Below are positions 1,829 through 61,933 of a DNA stretch of 64,000 bases, one piece after another. The notes below the pieces were generated by a model. It saw only the letters and a program-made list of their open reading frames with translations. It ran no database searches and was not told the DNA's origin. This DNA is from a virus. Made by a program: the position numbers and the translations under genes. Each line of letters starts with the position of its first letter. The first letter of the stretch is position 1. The stretch spans positions 1-64,000 of IMG/VR virus record IMGVR_UViG_3300035666_000007; one strand, written 5' to 3'.

Positions 1829-3073
1829 ATGAGCGAAGAAATTACCGCCAGTAATTACGCCAAGCATTTCGACCCGAGCAAGGCCAATCATCTGGCTTTT
1901 TTTCAGGCTCTTCTTGATCGAGTCAGCGAACTCGACCCGAAAGCGCTGCAAGAGGGGGGCGATCTCAGAGGGATCTGGACGGCGGCTGTAGGAACCAGGG
2001 CTCCATCAACGCCTGGAGCGGAATCAGAGGGCCCAGCGGGGCAGCAGGGACAGGCTGGCGGGACCTGGGCGAGCGTCGAGAGAATGGCCAAGGCGGCTGG
2101 CGCCAAGTATCCCGAGCTGGTGGCGGCCCAATGGGCGCTGGAATCGGGCTGGGGGAAGCACACCAGCGGGCGCCACAACTATTTCGGCCTCAAGGGTGGT
2201 GGAAGCGCAAAGAAAACAACCGAGTACGTGAACGGCAAGCCGGTGACTATCACCGATGAGTTCTTGAATTTCGCCTCGCTTCAGGAGTGTGTTGCCTACC
2301 TTGTCGATCGCTGGTACAAAGATTTCAAAAATTACAAAGGCGTGAACAGAGCGCCTAGTCGGGACGAGGCAGCAAAAATGCTCCAGGCGGAAGGATATGC
2401 GACCGACCCTGAATACAGCGACAAACTTGTAAAACGAATGAACAAGCACTCACCCGTCAAAAAGCTGGTAACACAACAGCCTTCTGTGTCTCCCGCAAGC
2501 GCTGTTAAGGCCGATGCGTCGCAGTGGAAGGCGAGAGTCAGTGCGCTGAATCTCTCCCAGCCCAATGCTTCCACGTGCCAAGCGGCTTGCATTGCAATGG
2601 CGGTAAGCGACAAAAACATCATTGGCATCAGAAACAAGCTGATTGCGACTGGGCGATCAGCCGGTGATCCATCCGCGATGGCTCAGGTGATCAGAACGTA
2701 CAAAAACGTCAATTACGTTTACGACGGTGACGCATCACTGGAAAAAGTTTATGGATGGCTTAAGGAAGGCGAACTCCTCATCACCCACGGCTGGTTTACG
2801 GTGTCCGGGCATGTCATCATTCTTGACGGCCTCGTCCAAAATCCTGCCAGCAAAAATTACTCCTTGGATGTAAAAGATCCCTGGTCGGAATTTGACGGCC
2901 CAAGCTGGAGCTACAACAAAACAAGTAAGTTTTTTGACGGATTCTACAGTGAAAACATTATTTACGCCGCCTGTGTCGCCGGAACAAGTGCGATCAATGC
3001 AGCGTCTGTTTACAGGTCGAAAGCGCTAAACAGGAAGCGTGGCGGCATGTGGGTGCATCGCTTTAAGCCCTAG
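1829..3073 (+). CDS. Bifunctional endolysin: GH73-type glucosaminidase plus C39-like peptidase
   Basis: 414 residues from ATG 1829, which begins MSEEITASNYAKHF; an upstream in-frame codon lacks support. Residues about 75-210 match a FlgJ/GH73 N-acetylglucosaminidase: ELVAAQWALESGWGK carries the catalytic Glu and NYFGLKG follows. Residues about 240-400 look like a papain-fold C39-type peptidase, with Cys in TCQAACIAMA, His in VSGHVIILDG and Asp in VKDPW as the likely triad. The pair would cut glycan strands and peptide cross-links of peptidoglycan. It ends convergently with the sigma-factor gene, overlapping by 4 bp. Confidence 0.8.
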   Translation: MSEEITASNYAKHFDPSKANHLAFFQALLDRVSELDPKALQEGGDLRGIWTAAVGTRAPSTPGAESEGPAGQQGQAGGTWASVERMAKAAGAKYPELVAAQWALESGWGKHTSGRHNYFGLKGGGSAKKTTEYVNGKPVTITDEFLNFASLQECVAYLVDRWYKDFKNYKGVNRAPSRDEAAKMLQAEGYATDPEYSDKLVKRMNKHSPVKKLVTQQPSVSPASAVKADASQWKARVSALNLSQPNASTCQAACIAMAVSDKNIIGIRNKLIATGRSAGDPSAMAQVIRTYKNVNYVYDGDASLEKVYGWLKEGELLITHGWFTVSGHVIILDGLVQNPASKNYSLDVKDPWSEFDGPSWSYNKTSKFFDGFYSENIIYAACVAGTSAINAASVYRSKALNRKRGGMWVHRFKP

Positions 3074-3969
3074 CGGCCAAAGGACAAGCCAATGCTTCTT
3101 TGGGCTTCTATTGTTGCCTTGCACAGTGTGACACCCTTTCTCTCGGCGTCTTGCAGTTGATGCCTGGAAAGGCCTGTTGCGTCTTGCAAATCCTTCCAGG
3201 TGGTAGGAACTTCTCTTGATCTCTCGATGACAACATACCTTGTCAAGTCGTCAAGATAATTCTCAAGGGCAAAAAACAGCTCTTCCAGCATCGTGTCGAA
3301 CTCAAGGCTTTCCACCGTATTGATATTAGTACAATCTTCTATTTTGTCGCCCATGGAGAACTGCCCTTCATCGCCCTCCATTTTAATGTCGAGGCTGGAA
3401 GGGGGTTGCGCTCTCTGAAGCGCTGCAATCAATTCGTCAACCGAAATTCCAACTAATTCCGAAATCTCCTTAAATGTCGGACGGCGATTAAAATTTCGAG
3501 TAAGCTCCTCAGCCGCTTTATTGATCTTTCCGAGCAGATCGTGGAAACTGGTCGGAAGGCGAATCGATGAATCCGACAGCTTGATCGACCTTTGCATTGC
3601 CTGCCTGATCCACCAGTAGCAATAGGTTGAAAATTTGTAGCCCCTGCTAAAGTCAAACTTTTCTACGGCCCTGATAAGGGCAACATTGCCGTCCTGGATT
3701 AAATCAATCAGCTCAAGTGTCTTGCACATGTGATGATACTTTGTTGCGATATTTACCACCAATCGCAAATTGCAATTTATAAACTTTTGCTTTGCTTTTT
3801 TGCAGACGACAATTTCGATCTGCTCGCTCGTGTCCAGTGATTCTTTTGCCTCCAGTTCGTTAAGCCTTGCGACACGGCGCCCCAGCTCAATCTCCTCCTC
3901 GGGGCGAAGGAGGGGGTATCTGCCGATCTCGTTGAGATAGCGCTTGATTGAGGGGTCGGTCTTGGCCAC
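3070..3969 (-). CDS. Phage-encoded sigma-70 family factor (group-2 like)
   Basis: 299 residues, GTG start; a TAG lies four codons upstream in frame. Region 1.2 is clear (KRYLNEIGRYPLL, then EEEIELGRRV). Region 2 is strong: NLRLVVNIATKYH, LIDLIQDGNVALIRAVEKFD and FSTYCYWWIRQAM, so core binding and -10 melting should be intact. Region 3 is present (RPTFKEISELVGIS). Region 4 keeps a helix-turn-helix (TWKDLQDATGLSRHQLQDAERKG) but departs from the usual region 4.2 consensus, so -35 recognition may differ. It resembles non-essential cyanobacterial sigma factors and probably redirects host polymerase to late genes. Confidence 0.85.
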   Translation of the reverse strand: MAKTDPSIKRYLNEIGRYPLLRPEEEIELGRRVARLNELEAKESLDTSEQIEIVVCKKAKQKFINCNLRLVVNIATKYHHMCKTLELIDLIQDGNVALIRAVEKFDFSRGYKFSTYCYWWIRQAMQRSIKLSDSSIRLPTSFHDLLGKINKAAEELTRNFNRRPTFKEISELVGISVDELIAALQRAQPPSSLDIKMEGDEGQFSMGDKIEDCTNINTVESLEFDTMLEELFFALENYLDDLTRYVVIERSREVPTTWKDLQDATGLSRHQLQDAERKGVTLCKATIEAQRSIGLSFGR

Positions 3970-6384: not shown

Positions 6385-6933
6385 TCATGGCAGAAGCTCA
6401 ATGGCCAGTTGCGATGCGTGCTCTTCGTCAAGCCTTGCAACAGAGATCCAGGCCCCCGCCTGGCGCCCCTCCGGCGTGAAAACCTTCATGGCACTGCCGG
6501 AAACGATCATTGCGTCGTCTTGGTAACAGACGCCAGTGAGCGAGTCGCCAATCGCCCTGAGCAGTTTGTCGTAATCTTTTTTTTGTGAATGGAAGACGGG
6601 TGAACTTGGCTTGACGCGGCCAAGACTCGTGTAGTGAAGCTTTGGCCGAGGAAGGTAAAACAGAACCCTTAAGACAAAAAGTCCTTCCATCTCCCAGTCG
6701 CTCGGAAGCATTAAGCGTGCGACGTTCCCAACACTTGCCCGCCAAGAGCTGAGATTTTTGTCCTGTTCAACCATGTTGACGACAACTTTGAGCTTGCCAG
6801 TGTTTTTATCTTTGACAGCCCGCCCAAATGCCGTCTTGCTGCCTTGACAAGCTGGGGTACCGGCAACAAAGAATTCATGCTTTTTTATCGTTGCCTGCCG
6901 CAGCGCTTCGCTCAGGGTGGCTTTCGATGGCAT
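6385..6933 (-). CDS. rusA: RusA-family Holliday junction resolvase
   Basis: 182 residues. The N-terminus has VAGTPACQGSKTAFGRAV, the RusA-type opening. The central segment KKDYDKLLRAIGDSL then YQDDAMIVSG holds the Asp cluster that coordinates metal in RusA (DxD/K and DD). It would resolve branched DNA made during phage recombination, matching the ERF and SSB genes upstream. It overlaps the preceding gene by 59 bp if ATG 6933 is used; a later start is possible because the conserved part begins near residue 20. Confidence 0.82.
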   Translation of the reverse strand: MPSKATLSEALRQATIKKHEFFVAGTPACQGSKTAFGRAVKDKNTGKLKVVVNMVEQDKNLSSWRASVGNVARLMLPSDWEMEGLFVLRVLFYLPRPKLHYTSLGRVKPSSPVFHSQKKDYDKLLRAIGDSLTGVCYQDDAMIVSGSAMKVFTPEGRQAGAWISVARLDEEHASQLAIELLP

Positions 6934-7624
6934 CGTTCAGCTTGTAGACTTCTATTAGCCTAGCTATTAAGATACGAGTCTTGTACTTGTCAAGGCGAGA
7001 GTAAAGCTCTCTGGCCAGCTTTTCGATTTCGCTAACGGTTGGATACTGAAAAAGCTTAATTGGCGTCAATACTTTTCTGACGTGCGGCTTTATTATTTCT
7101 TTGTAGGCCTTGGGTAAGCTGTTATATTTTCTGTTTGGACCAATATACTTTAACTCATCAGGAGAGTTGAGGTAGATGAGTTTAAGCAAGTTAAGGTAGT
7201 GATATTTTTTTTCCGTTGGTCCGCTCATTTTTGAAATTGCTATCCTGAGACGGCGAAACTCCCAATATGAATCTGGAAACTCAAAGGAGTCCGGGTCCTC
7301 TTCGTGCAGCCATTGAATAAATCGCCTGATCTGACCGTCTCTTGATTTGCCATCGGCATCCAGCCTTGCGCACGTTGCCAAAAAGTCAGGCAAGTTCTTG
7401 ATCCCAAGGCCATAATGAAAGTTGTAAAAAAAATCCTTGACGCCCCCCAGCCTTGCTTGTCTTCCGTTGATTGTCGTATATCCAAGGTAGACCTTTCTTT
7501 TAATTATCTCCTCCATCGCTTCAAAAAAAAGCTCTGACATATTTCCGTTAACTACGTTAGAGAGATGCAGCCTGGCGTTGGCGACCAGGACTGCATCGTG
7601 CTCTTCTGATCTTCCTCCTTTCAT
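6875..7624 (-). CDS. Hypothetical protein, 249 residues
   Basis: Mostly helical and basic, with aromatic-rich stretches (FFYNFHYGLGIKNLPDFLA; DSYWEFRRLRIAI). No family recognised. It lies between dNMP kinase (2 bp away) and rusA (59-bp overlap), so it belongs to the DNA-metabolism operon. Base use is like its neighbours. A DNA-processing partner is plausible from context only. Confidence 0.6.
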   Translation of the reverse strand: MKGGRSEEHDAVLVANARLHLSNVVNGNMSELFFEAMEEIIKRKVYLGYTTINGRQARLGGVKDFFYNFHYGLGIKNLPDFLATCARLDADGKSRDGQIRRFIQWLHEEDPDSFEFPDSYWEFRRLRIAISKMSGPTEKKYHYLNLLKLIYLNSPDELKYIGPNRKYNSLPKAYKEIIKPHVRKVLTPIKLFQYPTVSEIEKLARELYSRLDKYKTRILIARLIEVYKLNDAIESHPERSAAAGNDKKA

Positions 7625-24710: not shown

Positions 24711-26675
24711 TCAGAATTTGATTGTAAACGGCCTTCCGTCTGCAATCACCTTCACGGAGTCAGATTTTGTCGAGGAAAATCCGACACCGGAAAGTTGATT
24801 GTTGGTTGGCTGACACTTGGTTTTGCTGGCAAGAATTTCAAACACTTTTCGATGCGGCTCAAGAGAGCTGATCAGGAACTCGTTGAAAATTCCCCTGGCA
24901 GGTTCTGGGTTCAAGCACCCGTCAAGAATGAAGAAATAATGCTTGTTGCCTGTTTTGCTTGAGTTGTCCCAATGGTTTGGCGAAAGCATCATCATGTTTA
25001 CCCTTGCTGGCCTGCCTGTCCTGATGCCCCACTTGTCAACAGAGATACTACTTTCGCCGGAGACTCCATTAAACGTTTTTACGTCAACCAAGGCGCCGTC
25101 TTTGACGACAAGCGTCAAGCAGTGAACGTTTTGGCCAAAGAGAATAGGGCGATCGTAAGCGAAATTGTAAACTTGCTTTTCAAATTCAACCTGAAGCTGG
25201 AAACCCGTATCCTTTCTTTCTCTTTGTCTATAACTGTTGACAGTAATGCTATACTCACCGTCTGCTATCGATTGCCAGCTCAGATTTTCGACTGGCTCCC
25301 TTGAACTGGCTCCGCCAGCGTTCATATCAACATCAAGAATTCCTAACTTGTTGCGGTAGCTGATATGCTGCCCCGAGGGGTCAACGCAGTGAATGTCAAG
25401 ATCGTCATAATTCGACCAGGCGAGAGAGCAGCGCATTTTTGCGTCAACATTGCCACCCGCTTTTTTTACGCGCTCTTTGACAGAGTCAGCGACATCACCG
25501 TCGTAAGCCCAGCCAAACGCATTGTCCCACTTGAACAACGAGGGCGAACTGGAAACAGCCGGGGCCGTGATGCTGACAAAATTACCGAGATGGCTGGGCT
25601 CAATCACAAGATCGATGGCCTTGCTGCGCATGGCGATAAAATCTTCAATGCCGATTTCAACGCCTGCGGCTTTCGGGCTTGACGGACGAACTTCTTGCAT
25701 TAAAAGATCGGCAATCCCGTCTTTCGTTTTGGCAATGACACTGTTGTCAACGAAAATAATATCATTGACGCTAATGTCTTCCACTGAGGCAAAGCGACGG
25801 TTGATGGAATCCTCAAGATCCAGTCGCTTAAGGGTGTCAACCGCTGAATTGATCATCCCCGGCGTAATCAGCGCCTTGGGGCGCTTGTAGTTACCAGGAG
25901 CAACTTTAGCCTCGAAGCTTTTGACGGCTCTTTCAATATCAACAGAGTTTGCGAGGTCAACAGCAAGCGTTCCGATGACAGTATTCTTGAAACGCGCAGA
26001 GGGGGAGTGAATGTGCTCCCAGGCGAATAGCTCGATTTCGGTCGCCTGCGCGTATTTCCTGAGCAGAGAGCGAAATTCAACGACCGACTTTCGATGCTCC
26101 TCTCCCCTGTAGATAGCCCCGTCGTCGATTAGTGAAACGATTTCGTCGAGGTCAGCAACCCTTAATTCATCCAAGCCCCGCTTGAAAACCGAGTAGGCCC
26201 CGTTAATCCTGCCGATTTCTTCGCCTGGCGACGAATGGACACAGGGGCGAGGCGTATTGCCGTGAAAGTGATGCCAAACAATGTCACTGTTGGCGTCCAG
26301 GTTTTTTTCAACACTAAAGCTTCGCTCTTGAGTGCGAAAAACAGACTGAATTGGGCTGTTGCTGACCAGCTCATCCATCGCTGCAGCAACAACTGAATAG
26401 GTCGGGCACAGGTCGCCAATTTCGCCCCAAACAGTGTAAATTTTTTGATCTTTTATCGCAACAATGCGCCCGAGATTGCGAATGAAACTTTTGCAGCACT
26501 GACAGTCGTGCTCAGTGCGCTCGCGAAAGATTGGATTTGTTCCATCCGGGAAAAAGCTCAAATATGCATCAAAAATATTTGGGCAGTCTACTTTGTAAAA
26601 CTCGGTAAAGTTCTCCGACAGCCACTTTAGCCTGTTGCTGACGGCGGCAGAGAATGGTCTGAAATCTGTTTGCAT
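24711..26675 (-). CDS. Large phage protein with DUF2135-like beta-sandwich
   Basis: 654 residues from ATG 26675 (MQTDFRPFSAAVSNRLKWLS); the next upstream ATG would precede the promoter. The N-terminal 150 residues have His/Cys pairs (HDCQCCKSFIRN; WHHFHGNTPRPCVHS). Around residues 430-540, SNYDDLDIHCVDPSGQHISY, LDVDMNAGGAS, then SWQSIADGEYSITVNSYRQR matches the DUF2135/YfaP-type beta-sandwich (DxDLHVxxPxG ... GEYxVxV). It is the first gene after a strong promoter. This type of protein is found in other large phages; function unknown. Confidence 0.7.
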   Translation of the reverse strand: MQTDFRPFSAAVSNRLKWLSENFTEFYKVDCPNIFDAYLSFFPDGTNPIFRERTEHDCQCCKSFIRNLGRIVAIKDQKIYTVWGEIGDLCPTYSVVAAAMDELVSNSPIQSVFRTQERSFSVEKNLDANSDIVWHHFHGNTPRPCVHSSPGEEIGRINGAYSVFKRGLDELRVADLDEIVSLIDDGAIYRGEEHRKSVVEFRSLLRKYAQATEIELFAWEHIHSPSARFKNTVIGTLAVDLANSVDIERAVKSFEAKVAPGNYKRPKALITPGMINSAVDTLKRLDLEDSINRRFASVEDISVNDIIFVDNSVIAKTKDGIADLLMQEVRPSSPKAAGVEIGIEDFIAMRSKAIDLVIEPSHLGNFVSITAPAVSSSPSLFKWDNAFGWAYDGDVADSVKERVKKAGGNVDAKMRCSLAWSNYDDLDIHCVDPSGQHISYRNKLGILDVDMNAGGASSREPVENLSWQSIADGEYSITVNSYRQRERKDTGFQLQVEFEKQVYNFAYDRPILFGQNVHCLTLVVKDGALVDVKTFNGVSGESSISVDKWGIRTGRPARVNMMMLSPNHWDNSSKTGNKHYFFILDGCLNPEPARGIFNEFLISSLEPHRKVFEILASKTKCQPTNNQLSGVGFSSTKSDSVKVIADGRPFTIKF

Positions 26676-26716
26676 TTGCAAGGTGTTGATTGGGCGGGGT
26701 CTTTCCCCGTCACCAA

Positions 26717-26745
26717 ATCGTACCACGCGGGACAAACGGTGTCAA
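26717..26745 (-). promoter_or_regulatory. Promoter of the 654-residue protein operon
   Basis: TTGACA, exactly 17 bp, TACGAT on the minus strand, about 40 bp before ATG 26675. The perfect -35 supports it. Confidence 0.75.
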
Positions 26746-27894: not shown

Positions 27895-29319
27895 TCAGAA
27901 GTTAACCAGCCTCTCCGTCATGGCGTAGTTCTCTGCTGCAAACAGTATATTCGATGTACCAGTTGCTCCATGCCTATTCTTAAGAGCAATATATTCGTAG
28001 TCCATTGGATCGTGGTTTTTGTCATAATAATAAGGCCAATAGTTGCCAATGATAACGTCTGCGTCCTCCTCGATTCGCCCTGATTCTCTCAGATCCGACA
28101 TGACAGGGCGCTTGTCAATCCTTGTCTCTACGCCTCTGTTCAGCTGGCAAACAGCAACAATATCAACACCAGCTTTCTTGGAAACCGTTTTAAGCTTTCG
28201 CGTTGCATTACCAATCATTAGCGCCCTTGTGTCCTTGTTACCCGAGTCGGAGTCAAGGTCTAGTAGCGTCAGATAGTCAATGATCACTAGGGTTAAATTT
28301 TTGCTCTTTCGTTTTTCAGATTTGATTCGTGCTACCACTTGCGACGGCGTTACCTCATAGGCATCCACAAAAATTAAATTATTTACCACCTTATCAATCG
28401 GCATTGAAGCAATTCTCAGCCTTTGCTGTTCGTTCATCTCCTGTCTAATGATCGCCCCGTAGCTTAGTGGCTCACCGTGCGAGCGCAAGCACTTCAAGTA
28501 GTCCATGCAAGAAATCATTCGCTGCGAAACCTGCTCGCCCGACATTTCAAGCGAATAAAAAAGAACCTTGCAGTCATTCAGGACGGCATCAAGAGCAAGA
28601 TTCATCGCCCAGGTCGATTTTCCACTACCAGGGCGCCCACAAGTTACGATCAGTCTTCCATCAGAGCCGCTCTCATAATGGTTGAGCCCCCCACCAAGAA
28701 TTGCATTCAGCCCGGAAAGACGAGTTCTGATGACTCGATTTTCAAGTTTTGGGCCAAGCAGTATGTCCCTGGCCTTCAGGATCGGATGAACCTCTTTCTG
28801 GTGCGAATCAGCGCCTTCAATCAAGTCGGCGGCTGCGAGAACAAGCCCGAGGGCGCCCTGGGTATCCTTTTTGCTGCATTTGGACTTAATGATTTCAAGT
28901 GATTTTTTAAGGGAATCCTCAATGCGAGATCTTGAATGATGTAGATACCAGACCGGCAACAACTGATCTTGCCAAACCTGAATATCCCTTTCGATCGCAC
29001 ATGCAGCGATCTGATCGATAAAGTCCTGAGCTGTTGTCGCGTCGCACCCAGAGACATTCCTTAGGCGAGTGGAGACGGTAATGTCATTGGTGGGGGCCTG
29101 GTGAAAAGTCAAATACTCTTCTTTCAAGCATTCAAACAAAAACTTGTTAAAAGGGTCGGAGAAAATATCCTCCCGCGCAGGCAGTGCAATAAATTTATCA
29201 ATCCACTCATTGTCGCCAAAACTAAAGCATAGATGATTATAGGCAGCGGCTAAAAAGTGCTTTTCGATTTCAATTGAATTTTCCTGCAACTCAAAAGCTT
29301 CGATGTCAAGAACAGTCAT
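27895..29319 (-). CDS. dnaB: DnaB-type replicative helicase
   Basis: 474 residues from ATG 29319 (MTVLDIEAFELQENSIEIEK). The N-terminal domain is short. Walker A is TCGRPGSGKSTWAMNLA near residue 225, followed by KVLFYSLEMSGEQVSQRMIS. Walker B is NLTLVIIDYLTLLDLD. The H3/H4 region is AVCQLNRGVETRIDKRPVMS then DLRESGRIEEDADVIIG. The C-terminal EYIALKNRHGATGTS has the arginine-finger region. All SF4/DnaB motifs are present, so it should be the phage fork helicase. Confidence 0.93.
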   Translation of the reverse strand: MTVLDIEAFELQENSIEIEKHFLAAAYNHLCFSFGDNEWIDKFIALPAREDIFSDPFNKFLFECLKEEYLTFHQAPTNDITVSTRLRNVSGCDATTAQDFIDQIAACAIERDIQVWQDQLLPVWYLHHSRSRIEDSLKKSLEIIKSKCSKKDTQGALGLVLAAADLIEGADSHQKEVHPILKARDILLGPKLENRVIRTRLSGLNAILGGGLNHYESGSDGRLIVTCGRPGSGKSTWAMNLALDAVLNDCKVLFYSLEMSGEQVSQRMISCMDYLKCLRSHGEPLSYGAIIRQEMNEQQRLRIASMPIDKVVNNLIFVDAYEVTPSQVVARIKSEKRKSKNLTLVIIDYLTLLDLDSDSGNKDTRALMIGNATRKLKTVSKKAGVDIVAVCQLNRGVETRIDKRPVMSDLRESGRIEEDADVIIGNYWPYYYDKNHDPMDYEYIALKNRHGATGTSNILFAAENYAMTERLVNF

Positions 29320-29401
29320 GGCAGCAGAGCGACGTAACGAACTGGGCTCAGGAAAGCGTATTGTGCGACTACCGCCACTGCAATACAGCAAAAACAATCT
29401 A

Positions 29402-30190
29402 TCACAGATTTAGCACAGCAGCTTGGTCATCGTCAAACTTACTTACAAGAGCGACGGCTGAGGGGCGCCCACCCCCCTGAAACTGCTGCCCCCAGGTCGG
29501 TGGCTTGTTTTTTTTGCCAAACTTCTTCCAGTTTGAATAGGTAATTGAAATCCATTTCTTTTCGCCAGCAGTGGATCTCTCAATCGCTTCTCGCAGCTGA
29601 GCCTTAACCTCATCGATTCCGCCATCTGGATCCCTCTCTATCCGAAGAAGGTTGTCAATCAGCCCATCAAACGCAACTTTTGCTTTTGACCCGCCTTTGT
29701 GGCTGTTGAAAAAGCTGCAAATTTGCGTATCAACAGCCTGAAGCTTGACTGGCACAATCGCATTGACGGCTGCGAACTTTTTGGGCGATCCAGTCGAGGC
29801 AGGGAGCCGTGGCGGAATAGGCGCCGGCTCGGAGCAGGGAGGAGGTGCCGTGGGAGCCGGGGCTTTCTCGACCTCCCAAAGCTTCAGCCTGTAGATATTT
29901 TCTGGGCGCCCGCCCTGGTTAAGTTTTACTGTTTTTTCGACAAGCCCTTTTTGTCGAAGCGAGGACACGCAGTCAGCGGCTGTCGCTCTTGAGATATTGG
30001 CGCAACTGCAAATAGCGTCATAGCACGGTTCGACAGAATCGCTACTTCCAGCACCGTCTGCAAAAAATTGCAAAGTGATCAAGACGCACAATTCGTTGTT
30101 ACTAAGCCAGCCACCTGGAGTCTCAAACTGCTTCCGAATAATCCAGTTCGGAATCGCCGTAAACGGATAACGGCTTTCAAAAACAGTCAT
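29402..30190 (-). CDS. Winged-helix replication protein (helicase-loader or initiator type)
   Basis: 262 residues from ATG 30190 (MTVFESRYPFTAIPNWIIRK). Residues about 15-105 hold a winged helix (LSNNELCVLITLQFFADG; CANISRATAADCVSSLRQKG). A Pro-rich linker (about 115-145) leads to a C-terminal helical domain (KKWISITYSNWKKFGKK). This DNA-binding/linker/C-terminal layout directly upstream of dnaB matches phage initiators or loaders such as lambda O or DnaD-like proteins. Confidence 0.7.
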   Translation of the reverse strand: MTVFESRYPFTAIPNWIIRKQFETPGGWLSNNELCVLITLQFFADGAGSSDSVEPCYDAICSCANISRATAADCVSSLRQKGLVEKTVKLNQGGRPENIYRLKLWEVEKAPAPTAPPPCSEPAPIPPRLPASTGSPKKFAAVNAIVPVKLQAVDTQICSFFNSHKGGSKAKVAFDGLIDNLLRIERDPDGGIDEVKAQLREAIERSTAGEKKWISITYSNWKKFGKKNKPPTWGQQFQGGGRPSAVALVSKFDDDQAAVLNL

Positions 30191-30362
30191 TTTCCACCTC
30201 GTGAATAAGCTTAAGTCCAAGCCTTGCGGCCTCAAGCTGCTGCTTTGAGAGTAAGTTGAATTTATTTTTATCGCCCTTACTGGCCGCTAAGATCTTGAGC
30301 ACCGCCAGGGAAGCTATTAGAGACGAAATCTCCTGCTCCTTCTCGGCCTGACCAGCGGTCAT
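30177..30362 (-). CDS. Small helical protein
   Basis: 61 residues from ATG 30362 (MTAGQAEKEQEISSLIASLA). It is entirely helical with an Ala/Leu/Lys pattern. It overlaps the winged-helix gene by 14 bp. Function unknown. Confidence 0.5.
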   Translation of the reverse strand: MTAGQAEKEQEISSLIASLAVLKILAASKGDKNKFNLLSKQQLEAARLGLKLIHEVENDCF

Positions 30363-32964: not shown

Positions 32965-33636
32965 TTAGGCAGAAGCGGCGATCACCGCTTCTGGATCTGG
33001 AAAGCCAAATAGCGGCAAGAAGAAGAATGGCTGATTGTTTGCACGCATAGTAGCAGCGCCTTGAATCTCATTGGAGGCCCTGGCTGCTGCCCAGGCTGCT
33101 TCCCCGGCTGCTTCCCCGGCTGCTTCCCCGGCTGCTTCCCAGGCTGCTTCCCCGGCTGCTGCCCCGGCTGCTTCCCCGGCTGCTTCCCCGGCTGCCGCCC
33201 TGGCTGCTGCCCAGGCTGCTTCCCCGGCTGCTTCCCCGGCTGCCCAGGCTGTCGCACTGGCTGCTGTCCAGGCTGCTGCCCAGGCCGCTGCCGTCATACG
33301 ATCAAGATGCCGCCAAAATGCAAGGACCAGATGCGCCTGATCTCCTAAAACTTGCTTAGGACTGCGAATTACGCTAGAAGGCGCACCTTCCTGTCTGTCG
33401 TTGACAATGCGCAACAAAACCGAATGAGCGACACTGATGCCAAACAGTTCGGCGACTTTCCTATCAGCGGCAGCCTGATCAATCTTGCGCAATTCATCGA
33501 CGGTCATCCCGCTTAAAAAATTCAGCGCCTGACCTTGAGCGCACATGCAAGAGCCGTCGTCACTGACGAGACTTCCTTTGAAAGGAATATTTCCAGGCCA
33601 GTAATCAAGAAGTTCATCAACTGTGGATGGTGTCAT
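32965..33636 (-). CDS. Protein with Ala/Trp/Glu tandem repeats
   Basis: 223 residues. The first 120 residues form a folded part (MTPSTVDELLDYWPGNIPFK; LSGMTVDELRKIDQAAADRK) of a type seen in phages. Residues about 117-195 are repeats of AAWAA and GEAAGEAA, encoded by 12-bp tandem DNA units (33091-33260). Such Ala/Trp helices are common in phage proteins and probably form an amphipathic rod. The repeats should vary in number between relatives. Confidence 0.65.
   Translation of the reverse strand: MTPSTVDELLDYWPGNIPFKGSLVSDDGSCMCAQGQALNFLSGMTVDELRKIDQAAADRKVAELFGISVAHSVLLRIVNDRQEGAPSSVIRSPKQVLGDQAHLVLAFWRHLDRMTAAAWAAAWTAASATAWAAGEAAGEAAWAAARAAAGEAAGEAAGAAAGEAAWEAAGEAAGEAAGEAAWAAARASNEIQGAATMRANNQPFFFLPLFGFPDPEAVIAASA
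33091..33260. repeat. 12-bp tandem repeats inside the Ala/Trp gene
   Basis: Units of GCTGCTTCCCCG and close variants repeat about fourteen times within the coding region at 32965-33636. They encode GEAA units in the minus-strand reading frame. Confidence 0.8.
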
Positions 33637-59007: not shown

Positions 59008-59080
59008 TGTAATTTTGAAAAATTCATTTCGCCCCATTCTCTTCTTTCTTCTTTCTTTTTCTTCTTTTTTCTTTATAGTC

Positions 59081-59761
59081 ATGACTGATTACAACTTTGA
59101 AATTCAAGACAGTAGTTTTGATCTTAATGATGAACAACTTGATTCACTTAATTGTGAAGAACTTAATGTTTTAGAACAAGACACGAATCTTACCTCTCTC
59201 GCGCCCGTTGCTGACAGCAAGCAATCTAATAGCTCTACAGTAATGGATGATACGGTTAACCAATCGTGGCAGTTCAGATCGAAATTAGCTACCAATGAAA
59301 CAGAAAAAGAATACCTTATCTTTAAGTTTTGGTTAGATGCAGGATCGGGACGATCAAAGCAGTACGTATCAAAAGTCTATAATTTAACAGAAAACTCTAT
59401 CTTCAAGGTAGCAAATAAGAATAACTGGGACTTGAGAGCTACGGATTACGACTGTTTTCAGTTGCAGTTAATGACCGCTGCAGAGAACAGCCGTCGTGCT
59501 CAGTTGCATAAACAGAAGCTAGAAGAGTACCGTCAACAACAGGAGTTCATTGGGCGAAGCCTGTCATCCGATGCAGCAAAGTTAGCAGCAATTGTTAGCA
59601 ATACGTTGGATCAGTTTATGTTAAATGATCGGTTGGTGGATATTCGTGATTTACCAGCTGTTTTGAATGCTGCTAACAAAGCAGCAGAGGTTGGTCGTAA
59701 CTTGCAAAGTTCTGCATTAGGCGTTGATCAGTTGCTGACTGCTCTGGAAGAATGCGAGTGA
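59081..59761 (+). CDS. Terminase-small-subunit-like DNA-binding protein
   Basis: 226 residues from ATG 59081 (MTDYNFEIQDSSFDLNDEQL). After an acidic N-terminus, ETEKEYLIFKFWLDAGSGRS, YVSKVYNLTENSIFKVANKN and NWDLRATDYDCFQLQLMTAA match the helix-turn-helix plus W(D/K)xRAxxYD pattern of phage small-terminase-like proteins. A C-terminal helical region follows. It is AT-rich like its neighbour. With no large terminase nearby, a plain DNA-binding regulator is the alternative. Confidence 0.55.
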   Translation: MTDYNFEIQDSSFDLNDEQLDSLNCEELNVLEQDTNLTSLAPVADSKQSNSSTVMDDTVNQSWQFRSKLATNETEKEYLIFKFWLDAGSGRSKQYVSKVYNLTENSIFKVANKNNWDLRATDYDCFQLQLMTAAENSRRAQLHKQKLEEYRQQQEFIGRSLSSDAAKLAAIVSNTLDQFMLNDRLVDIRDLPAVLNAANKAAEVGRNLQSSALGVDQLLTALEECE

Positions 59762-59997: not shown

Positions 59998-60411
59998 ATG
60001 CCCCCTGTCCCGCCCTCCGCTGCAGATGCCGATGCTGTTGCGGTTGCAAAAACAGATGGCCATTCCGGTTTTTGCATGTTTCATCCGCTGGAAGCAAGGA
60101 AATACTTTGCGCAAATCAAGCGGCGTGAATTGATGCCTCGTGACTTTGCGGTGTTGTTTGCGGTTTTGTCGTTGTGCGATACGAAGACCGGACGGGTTCG
60201 ATTCATCATTCAAGAGCTTGGCGAAGAGTTGGGCATGCACCCCACCGTGGTTAGTAGCTCGATACGGCGACTCAAAAAGCATTTACTGATTGCCAATTGC
60301 GTGGATCCCGATGGGGACCGCTATTACTTAATCAATCCGTATTTGTTGTCGGTTGGGCGTCGGCAGCGTTGGGGATTGTTGCTGAAGCGGTTTGAGCTGG
60401 CGCTGGAATAG
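59998..60411 (+). CDS. RepL-like winged-helix replication protein
   Basis: 137 residues; the first 30 are low complexity, so the start may lie near 60076 (ATG, MFHPLEARKYFAQI). RRELMPRDFAVLFAVLSLCD, then IIQELGEELGMHPTVVSSSI, RRLKKHLLI and YYLINPYLL follow the order of RepL/plasmid replication winged-helix proteins. Two tandem repeat arrays lie directly downstream, as iterons often do. It could equally be a repeat-binding regulator. Confidence 0.6.
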   Translation: MPPVPPSAADADAVAVAKTDGHSGFCMFHPLEARKYFAQIKRRELMPRDFAVLFAVLSLCDTKTGRVRFIIQELGEELGMHPTVVSSSIRRLKKHLLIANCVDPDGDRYYLINPYLLSVGRRQRWGLLLKRFELALE

Positions 60412-60412
60412 C

Positions 60413-60626
60413 CATTCAGGTTGCCTTCATGTTTTCGCATTCACGAAAGCCATTCAGGTTGCATTCAAATGCCCCATTCACGATTTGCATTCATGAAAGC
60501 CATTCACGATGGCCATTCATGCTGCATTCACGATTTGCATTCACGATTTGCATTCACGATTTGCATTCACGAAAGCCATTCACGAAAGCCATTCACGATA
60601 TGGATTCACGAAAGCCAGTCACGGAT
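60413..60626. repeat. 13-bp tandem repeat array
   Basis: About 16 head-to-tail units of CATTCACGAAAGC or CATTCACGATTTG with variants (CATTCATG, CATTCAGG). It begins 2 bp after the RepL-like stop. Short frames across it have no protein character. Confidence 0.85.
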
Positions 60627-60694
60627 GCGGATGGAAACCGGGCCCGGCGGAGGACTCAGGCTTTGGAGCCGTTGTCGATCGCCCACCCGGCTTG

Positions 60695-61095
60695 ATAGTT
60701 ACAGATAGCGATTCCAGACAAATAGTTACAGATAGCGATTGTCACCTGATAGTTACAGATAGCGATTGTCACCTGATAGTTACAGATAGCAATTGTTGAT
60801 AAATAGTTACAGATAGCGATTGCTATTTAATAGTTACAGATAGCAATTGTTGCATATCAGATAGCAATTGCCAGTAAATAGTTACAGATAGCGATTGTTG
60901 GCTAATAGTTACAGATAGTAATTGTTGCTTGATAGTTACAGATAGCGATTGTTATGTGTTAGACAGCAATGACTGATCAATAGTTACAGATAGTGATTGC
61001 TAGTAAATAGTTATAGATAGTGATTGTTATTTGATAGTTACAGATAGCGATTGCTATTTGATAATAATAAATAGCGATTACTGGTAAATAGTTAT
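60695..61095. repeat. 27-bp tandem repeat array (iteron-like)
   Basis: About 15 units with the core AGTTACAGATAGCGATTG, most spaced 27 bp apart. Units 2 and 3 are identical; later units drift, and two are shortened by 7-8 bp. In one frame a unit encodes nine residues, but that frame stops after four units. The size, number and Rep-like neighbour suggest a replication origin or partition-type site. Confidence 0.85.
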
Positions 61096-61216
61096 CACAA
61101 GCCCCGCGTTGGTGTTATCGAACACCAGCACAGTTACCGATACAATTGCCAGTACAGTTGCTAATACAGTTACCGATACAGAGGCGGAAACAGTCCGGCT
61201 GTGGTGTCACCCCTTG

Positions 61217-61245
61217 TTGACACCAATGGTGCGGATCGGTCCTAT
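61217..61245 (+). promoter_or_regulatory. Promoter with operator palindrome
   Basis: TTGACA, 17 bp, TCCTAT. CACCAATGGTG (61221-61231) overlaps the -35 end. A second inverted repeat, TCCTA/TAGGA, spans the -10 and start site (61240-61256). Confidence 0.72.
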
Positions 61246-61303: not shown

Positions 61304-61933
61304 ATGACCCGCACCACCAGCACCACCACCAGCACCACGGAGCCCGCGCCCTCCGCCCTCATGGCGGAGTTGCTCGCCGCGTTCCATCAAGTCGCCGCCC
61401 AAGGCCCCAGCAAGCGCAGCAGCGCCGCCGCCGCTCCTGTCGATCCTTGGGAGGGTGTGACGCTCACCCTTGAGCAGGAGCGCGCCTTAATCAAGCTGGG
61501 TTGGCATCAGCAAGGCTGGACAGTCCGGGAGAAAGCCAGCCGCCAGGCCTTGCCGCCCCACCTAGCCAAAGCTGGCCCCCAACAGCCCGACGCCCGCAAG
61601 GTGGCGGAAGGCCTGGTAGACGTCCAGGGATTGGCCAACTGGAGCGCCTTAGGCATGATCTGCGCCCGCCTGGCTGCCTACGGCAAACTGCACGTTGGGG
61701 CCGTGGCGCAGGTCTTGGTGGCCACTGGAGCAGCCGGAGATTGGTCCGCCACGCCTGGCAAGTTTGCCTCAAAATTGGGATCCGTGTTGCGGGTGAAGAT
61801 CACGCGAACGGGAGATGGCTACTACGAAGCCACCCCAAACGGCCATCAGCCCATGCACGACGTGCTAGCCCGTATGGCCGATGGCATCCTCAAACCAGCC
61901 CAGCCCGCCAAGCCCGCCAAGCCAGCCGACTGA
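61304..61933 (+). CDS. Hypothetical protein with GC-rich coding sequence
   Basis: 209 residues from ATG 61304, just downstream of the operator promoter (start upstream of the promoter rejected). The N-terminus is a Thr/Ser/Ala linker. Residues about 55-185 look folded (LTLEQERALIKLGWHQQGWT; VTRTG-like strands; WSATPGKFASKLGSVLRVKI) and the end is a KPA repeat. The central part resembles a small DNA-binding module. GC content is far above that of the AT-rich genes before it. Confidence 0.55.
   Translation: MTRTTSTTTSTTEPAPSALMAELLAAFHQVAAQGPSKRSSAAAAPVDPWEGVTLTLEQERALIKLGWHQQGWTVREKASRQALPPHLAKAGPQQPDARKVAEGLVDVQGLANWSALGMICARLAAYGKLHVGAVAQVLVATGAAGDWSATPGKFASKLGSVLRVKITRTGDGYYEATPNGHQPMHDVLARMADGILKPAQPAKPAKPAD

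Follow-up and report, generated by a model that had tools for sequence, protein, structure and literature searches.

Two tandem repeat arrays and a gene for a winged-helix protein are located between the genes for the small and large terminase subunits (TerS and TerL) of the virus record IMGVR_UViG_3300035666_000007, which has a length of 98,034 bases and of which the first 64,000 were analyzed as the stretch presented here (the window). The two arrays are a single-copy cis site that is non-coding and strand-oriented, and the best-supported reading, which in our judgment has an even chance of being right, is that they constitute a pac-like packaging-initiation region served by TerS. We prefer this reading because of the linkage to the terminase genes, the strand orientation, the independence from the replication genes and the precedent of the pac site in SPP1. 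An earlier note, made from the letters of the window, had described the module as a putative iteron origin or partition site; the two tandem arrays that it reported are real, as confirmed by Tandem Repeats Finder (TRF) and by motif counts, but the neighboring terminase genes were absent from its description. The module contains the following features, where ORF denotes an open reading frame and AF2 an AlphaFold2 structure model:

59051..59761, plus strand: terS-like gene (terminase small subunit), matching phrog_6299 with E 7e-11
59998..60411, plus strand: RepL-like winged-helix gene, 137 amino acids, assigned from the AF2 model, profile-profile comparison and synteny
60413..60623, plus strand: array A, direct CATTCA hexamers with a mostly 13-bp period (TRF, motif counts)
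60695..61094, plus strand: array B, AT-rich 27-bp array with the core ATAGTTACAGATAGCGATTG (TRF, motif counts)
61130..61181, plus strand: third short array, 12-bp unit ACAGTTGCCAAT in 4.3 copies (TRF)
61304..61933, plus strand: GC-rich ORF (66% GC), the downstream edge of the module (ORF call)

Two arrays at a single locus

Array A holds 14 exact forward copies of CATTCA between 60413 and 60595 and no reverse copies, and the first of them starts 1 nt past the stop codon of the winged-helix gene. Most copies are spaced by 13 bp, the exceptions being two spacings of 11 bp and one of 25 bp, and the TRF rows for this array span 60437-60623. A first-order Markov model of the stretch predicts 0.76 copies, and 14 or more were reached in 0 of 500 simulations. 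The exact sequence CATTCACGA is found nine times in the 98-kb genome, each time inside array A. For array B TRF reported 15.3 copies of a 27-bp period, and the 20-mer core occurs there 13 times at five or fewer mismatches, in 27-bp steps interrupted by two 48-bp gaps; 12 of these copies have at most two mismatches, a quality that is not found outside the array. The AT-richest 400 nt of the genome start at 60696 (68% AT). Since neither motif forms an array anywhere else in the closed genome and both cluster at this single locus only, we rejected the idea of scattered operators.

A coding origin of the arrays was likewise rejected, for array A because its main period, 13, is not divisible by 3, and for array B because it has no ORF of its own of at least 40 amino acids on either strand (one array A ORF extends into the first units of array B). 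Folded as RNA, array A was no better than many of its shuffled versions (z -1.55), and the good folding of array B (z -5.3) is put down to its repeated self-complementary units. A search of Rfam gave no match for the arrays, no DNA similarity to phage or plasmid records was found, and the combination of CATTCA, terminase and phage was not found in the literature searched. Elsewhere the genome has just one strongly repetitive stretch, a GC-rich 12-bp repeat with 18 copies (33077-33292), which is situated inside the ORF at 32965-33636 and thus, unlike the arrays, is coding.

The hexamer core is conserved across related viruses

Relatives were found through a TerL scan and a TerS scan of IMG/VR. 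Every one of the 34 related TerS loci carries a winged-helix homologue and CATTCA copies in forward orientation after TerS, so that the location at the terminase small-subunit locus expected of a pac site is seen in 34 of 34 cases. When the loci were reduced to 20 lineages at <80% winged-helix identity, CATTCA was the most widespread hexamer present at least three times, found in 19 lineages with 218 forward copies and a single reverse one, and in each of these 19 the count was higher than in any of 500 Markov simulations. In the 20th lineage, L066, CATTCA copies and the 3' end of the winged-helix gene overlap. The commonest CATTCA spacing differs by lineage, from 4 to 33 bp, and the repeat periods and the copy numbers change quickly between lineages; the remaining repeat sequence changes too. 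The inspected relatives also have an AT-rich equivalent of array B after array A, with units that differ, so the constant core belongs to array A only; an ACAGTT array occupies the position of the third array in L016-L018. The same place and the same six-letter core in many related viruses establish the array as a genuine DNA signal, which can also serve as a handle for finding this phage clade.

The hitchhiking replicon proposed in the earlier note is not borne out by this pattern, because the winged-helix gene and CATTCA follow TerS across the loci with the core conserved on one strand, and the module keeps its place between TerS and TerL at all 34. In S-CBS2 and S-CRES1, where TerS is 24-27% identical, TerS and TerL are directly adjacent and no array is present; the protein annotated as TerS in S-CBS2 is distantly related to that of the window (E 1e-11). 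Contig ends near TerS were considered as possible packaging ends and dropped, since they are biased by contig selection.

The winged-helix protein resembles RepL

The winged-helix protein of the window gave no match to Pfam RepL (PF05732) at E<=1 and on its own only weak matches to winged-helix families. Two relatives from other phages, L083 (27.2 bits) and L013 (21.1 bits), pass the RepL cut-off of 20.3, and profile-profile comparison with plasmid RepL proteins (hhalign) gave a probability of 98.4%, with E 5e-15 for one comparison, the homology covering the DNA-binding domain and the C-terminal INP motif. AF2 predicts a winged helix with confidence (predicted local distance difference test, pLDDT, 84.8), and RepL and replication initiators are among the named structural neighbors of this model in a viral fold library. 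T7-like cyanophages also carry relatives, and there is a weak match to the RepL protein of a Peribacillus plasmid. We therefore consider "RepL-like" a fair label at the level of profiles and fold; the earlier assignment to the RepL type holds to that extent, but not as a Pfam match of the window protein itself.

In the T7-like relatives, which have unrelated replication genes, the winged-helix gene is located just upstream of TerL, and this placement speaks for a tie to packaging. Three of them, L004 (S-SRP02), L014 and L033, are integrase-bearing T7-like cyanophages that carry this family in the same position without arrays. A RepL-like gene beside repeats, as the locus of the window cautions, is on its own no evidence for a plasmid replicon.

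Allele comparisons and the reader of the arrays

Across the lineages the mean pairwise identity is 60% for TerS and 27% for the winged-helix protein, whose putative recognition helices vary strongly. Four pairs (L074/L067, L074/L080, L074/L066 and L068/L065) combine TerS proteins that are 94-97% identical with winged-helix proteins of 21-23% identity, and their array DNA is 80-87% identical over aligned columns, or 36-70% over all columns; in L074/L067 TerL also differs (57%). Pairs with winged-helix identities of 82-86% and TerS identities of 71-78% showed array identities of 53-69%, and in control pairs with TerS below 55% the array identity was 41-53%. As far as sequences can tell, these comparisons speak against a specific reading of the arrays by the winged-helix protein, and they are compatible with TerS as the putative reader, in the sense of co-inheritance only.

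The winged-helix gene seems to have been exchanged as a cassette in L065, L066, L067, L068, L074 and L080, where alleles of about 20% identity adjoin TerS genes whose products are 94-97% identical.

A proposed pac-like packaging region

If the arrays act in packaging, the direct CATTCA array would load TerS multimers, TerL would be recruited and would cut nearby, and packaging would run in one direction along the concatemer. Array B could then provide a flexible segment or one close to the cleavage, and the RepL-like protein might act as an accessory factor or regulator. The first and last 127 bases of the record are identical, so the genome map closes to a circle, which is compatible with circularly permuted packaging. 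A precedent is the pac site of SPP1, where three sets of direct repeats are found at the small terminase gene (PMC4737164).

Several points weigh against this reading. The arrays are placed about 0.65 kb downstream of TerS, whereas the SPP1 pac is inside or before its TerS, and isolated DNA-binding domains of the SF6 TerS bind pac repeats without sequence preference (PMC4737164). L068/L070 and L069/L077 are pairs with similar TerS and dissimilar arrays, variation is also seen in the putative recognition helix of TerS, and the T7-like relatives described above carry the winged-helix gene without arrays. The neighboring winged-helix protein is related to plasmid initiators; this relationship, the origin-like layout of iterons plus AT-rich DNA and the lack of iterons in the O gene of the window phage favor the chief rival considered below.

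A possible second origin beside the O/DnaB system

The window also contains a set of replication genes:

29405..30235, minus strand: O-like replication initiator (phrog_270 and phrog_8540)
27898..29397, minus strand: DnaB-like replicative helicase (phrog_19, E 2e-60)

The dnaB-linked replication set described earlier was thus confirmed at 27.9-30.2 kb, while the PrimPol placed at 39 kb gave no family match. The chief rival to packaging, which we consider possible but on the whole unlikely, is that the arrays form a second, plasmid-type origin, where the RepL-like protein binds the CATTCA copies as iterons and the AT-rich array B melts; such an origin might fire in addition to the O/DnaB system, for example at a late stage or during the formation of concatemers. 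The homology to RepL, supported by profile comparison and by intermediate members of the family, speaks for it, as does the layout, in which direct repeats adjoin the AT-richest DNA of the genome. In addition, a Rep protein from the pHW126/pIGRK plasmid family binds iteron-like direct repeats of 20 bp (PMC6854812). No iterons of the lambda-type origin were found in the O gene of the window phage, so the arrays may still take part in its replication.

The relatives are less favorable to a second origin. Five of them (G001, G003, G019, G020 and G021) have tandem iterons between the two domains of the O gene, which is the position of the lambdoid origin (PMC7466680), and still keep the arrays. 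Between G001 and G003 the N-terminal domains of O and the iterons differ and the terminase-linked arrays are similar, and in G015 and G024, whose records may be fragments, DnaB is present, O was undetected and the arrays are kept. The arrays thus stay in place whether or not O has iterons, differs in its N-terminal domain or is detected, and their occurrence is independent of the replication module. Their persistence beside a winged-helix allele of 21-23% identity is unexpected for an initiator-iteron pair, and the GC-skew minimum, in itself weak evidence, is found at 40.9 kb, near a change of gene orientation, and not at the arrays. The iteron origin of the earlier note thus agrees with the layout and the RepL homology and is weakened by the independence of the arrays from both the O genes and the winged-helix allele.

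The O-gene iterons of G001, G003, G019, G020 and G021 are located in L047, L043, L097, L096 and L098, respectively. The N-terminal domains of these five O genes are of two types, which go with different iteron sequences, and the genes make up a naturally occurring series of lambda-type origins in which specificity has been exchanged.

Less likely readings: transcription control, a dual hub and partition

We regard it as improbable that the arrays serve transcription control, with the winged-helix protein or a host factor binding them and controlling the downstream late genes. The winged-helix fold is MarR-like, the arrays precede the 61304 ORF upstream of the late operon, and there is one perfect 8-bp inverted repeat at 61202-61225, all of which would suit such a role. 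On the other hand, operators do not usually consist of dozens of direct hexamers, the motifs have no copies at other promoters, and swaps of the winged-helix allele leave the arrays similar. Promoter-like sites are present at chance level (3 found against 2.8 expected), which also removes the support for the operator promoter claimed earlier.

Nor do we place much weight on a combination of functions, in which a RepL initiator of plasmid type has been domesticated beside the terminase of a cyanophage clade and the oriented CATTCA and AT-rich arrays make up a dual hub for replication and packaging. If this were true, concatemers made there would pass directly to TerS and TerL, and copying and packaging would share one cis site.

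It is very improbable that the arrays are a centromere-like partition site by which the phage persists in the manner of a plasmid. Arrays beside a small winged-helix protein recall tubC/TubR, and there is a weak sequence match to TubR (E 0.12), but the genome has no match to ParA-type (PF13614) or tubulin-type (PF00091) proteins, no integrase family match was found in it, and no relatives of the winged-helix protein or of TerS were found in bacterial genome contigs. A search for ParM-type proteins was uninformative, since its control was unmatched as well. The lack of an integrase match and of relatives in bacterial contigs also led us to reject lysogeny or a plasmid state, and neither the partition site nor the plasmid-like persistence suggested earlier finds support. 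A non-functional repeat expansion, with which the quick change of periods and copy numbers would agree, is scarcely credible, being contradicted already by the same place and the same one-strand hexamer core in 20 lineages.

Neighboring genes and other observations

TerL is encoded at 64616-66016, in the remaining 34 kb of the record, and its top database matches are terminases; further downstream, long ORFs resemble by eye head and tail genes. The counterparts of the 61304 ORF at the same place in relatives are very divergent in alignment, and the structure model of its product is too poor to use (pLDDT 48.7). A ThyX-like thymidylate synthase frame was recognized by eye at 62842-64572, continuing into L002 from position 21; it seems to be interrupted after GHYGC by an intein-like insert and to resume at LEHPQITLNAGWF, and L016 has an uninterrupted ThyX-like ORF at 6932-7582. 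A sigma-70-like protein with regions 1.2, 2 and 3 is encoded at 3073-3969 and is also present in G001, G003 and G015. The 674-residue phrog_1735 protein at 24714-26735, of unknown function, has 40-48% identity to proteins of many large phages of other hosts.

We call these viruses cyanophage-like because the phage relatives listed for TerS, and in part for the winged-helix protein, are Synechococcus phages. A single-copy oriented hexamer array in 20 lineages provides a concrete, testable sequence for two questions on large viruses of this kind, namely how they select their own DNA for packaging and whether more than one origin is used.

Comparison with known systems

The pac site of P1 resembles the present array in having several copies of a hexamer that are recognized by the small terminase subunit. 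It differs by being located within the P1 terminase gene, and neither a RepL-like gene nor an AT-rich array is known next to it.

With the lambda-type origin (PMC7466680) the arrays share iterons plus an AT-rich tract, and in the relatives such iterons are found in the middle of the O gene; the present arrays differ in being separate, non-coding and placed beside the terminase genes. RepL (PF05732) and the pHW126/pIGRK plasmids (PMC6854812) offer the likeness of a winged-helix protein next to direct repeats, to which the profile-level homology of the window protein adds in the case of RepL plasmids. Here, in contrast, the array does not follow the RepL-like allele, and the phage has an O/DnaB module of its own. 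The pac site of the Bacillus phages SPP1 and SF6 (PMC4737164) shares with the present locus the sets of direct repeats at the TerS locus and a map that closes to a circle, and the difference is that here two long arrays are positioned 3' of TerS and the RepL-like gene and before TerL.
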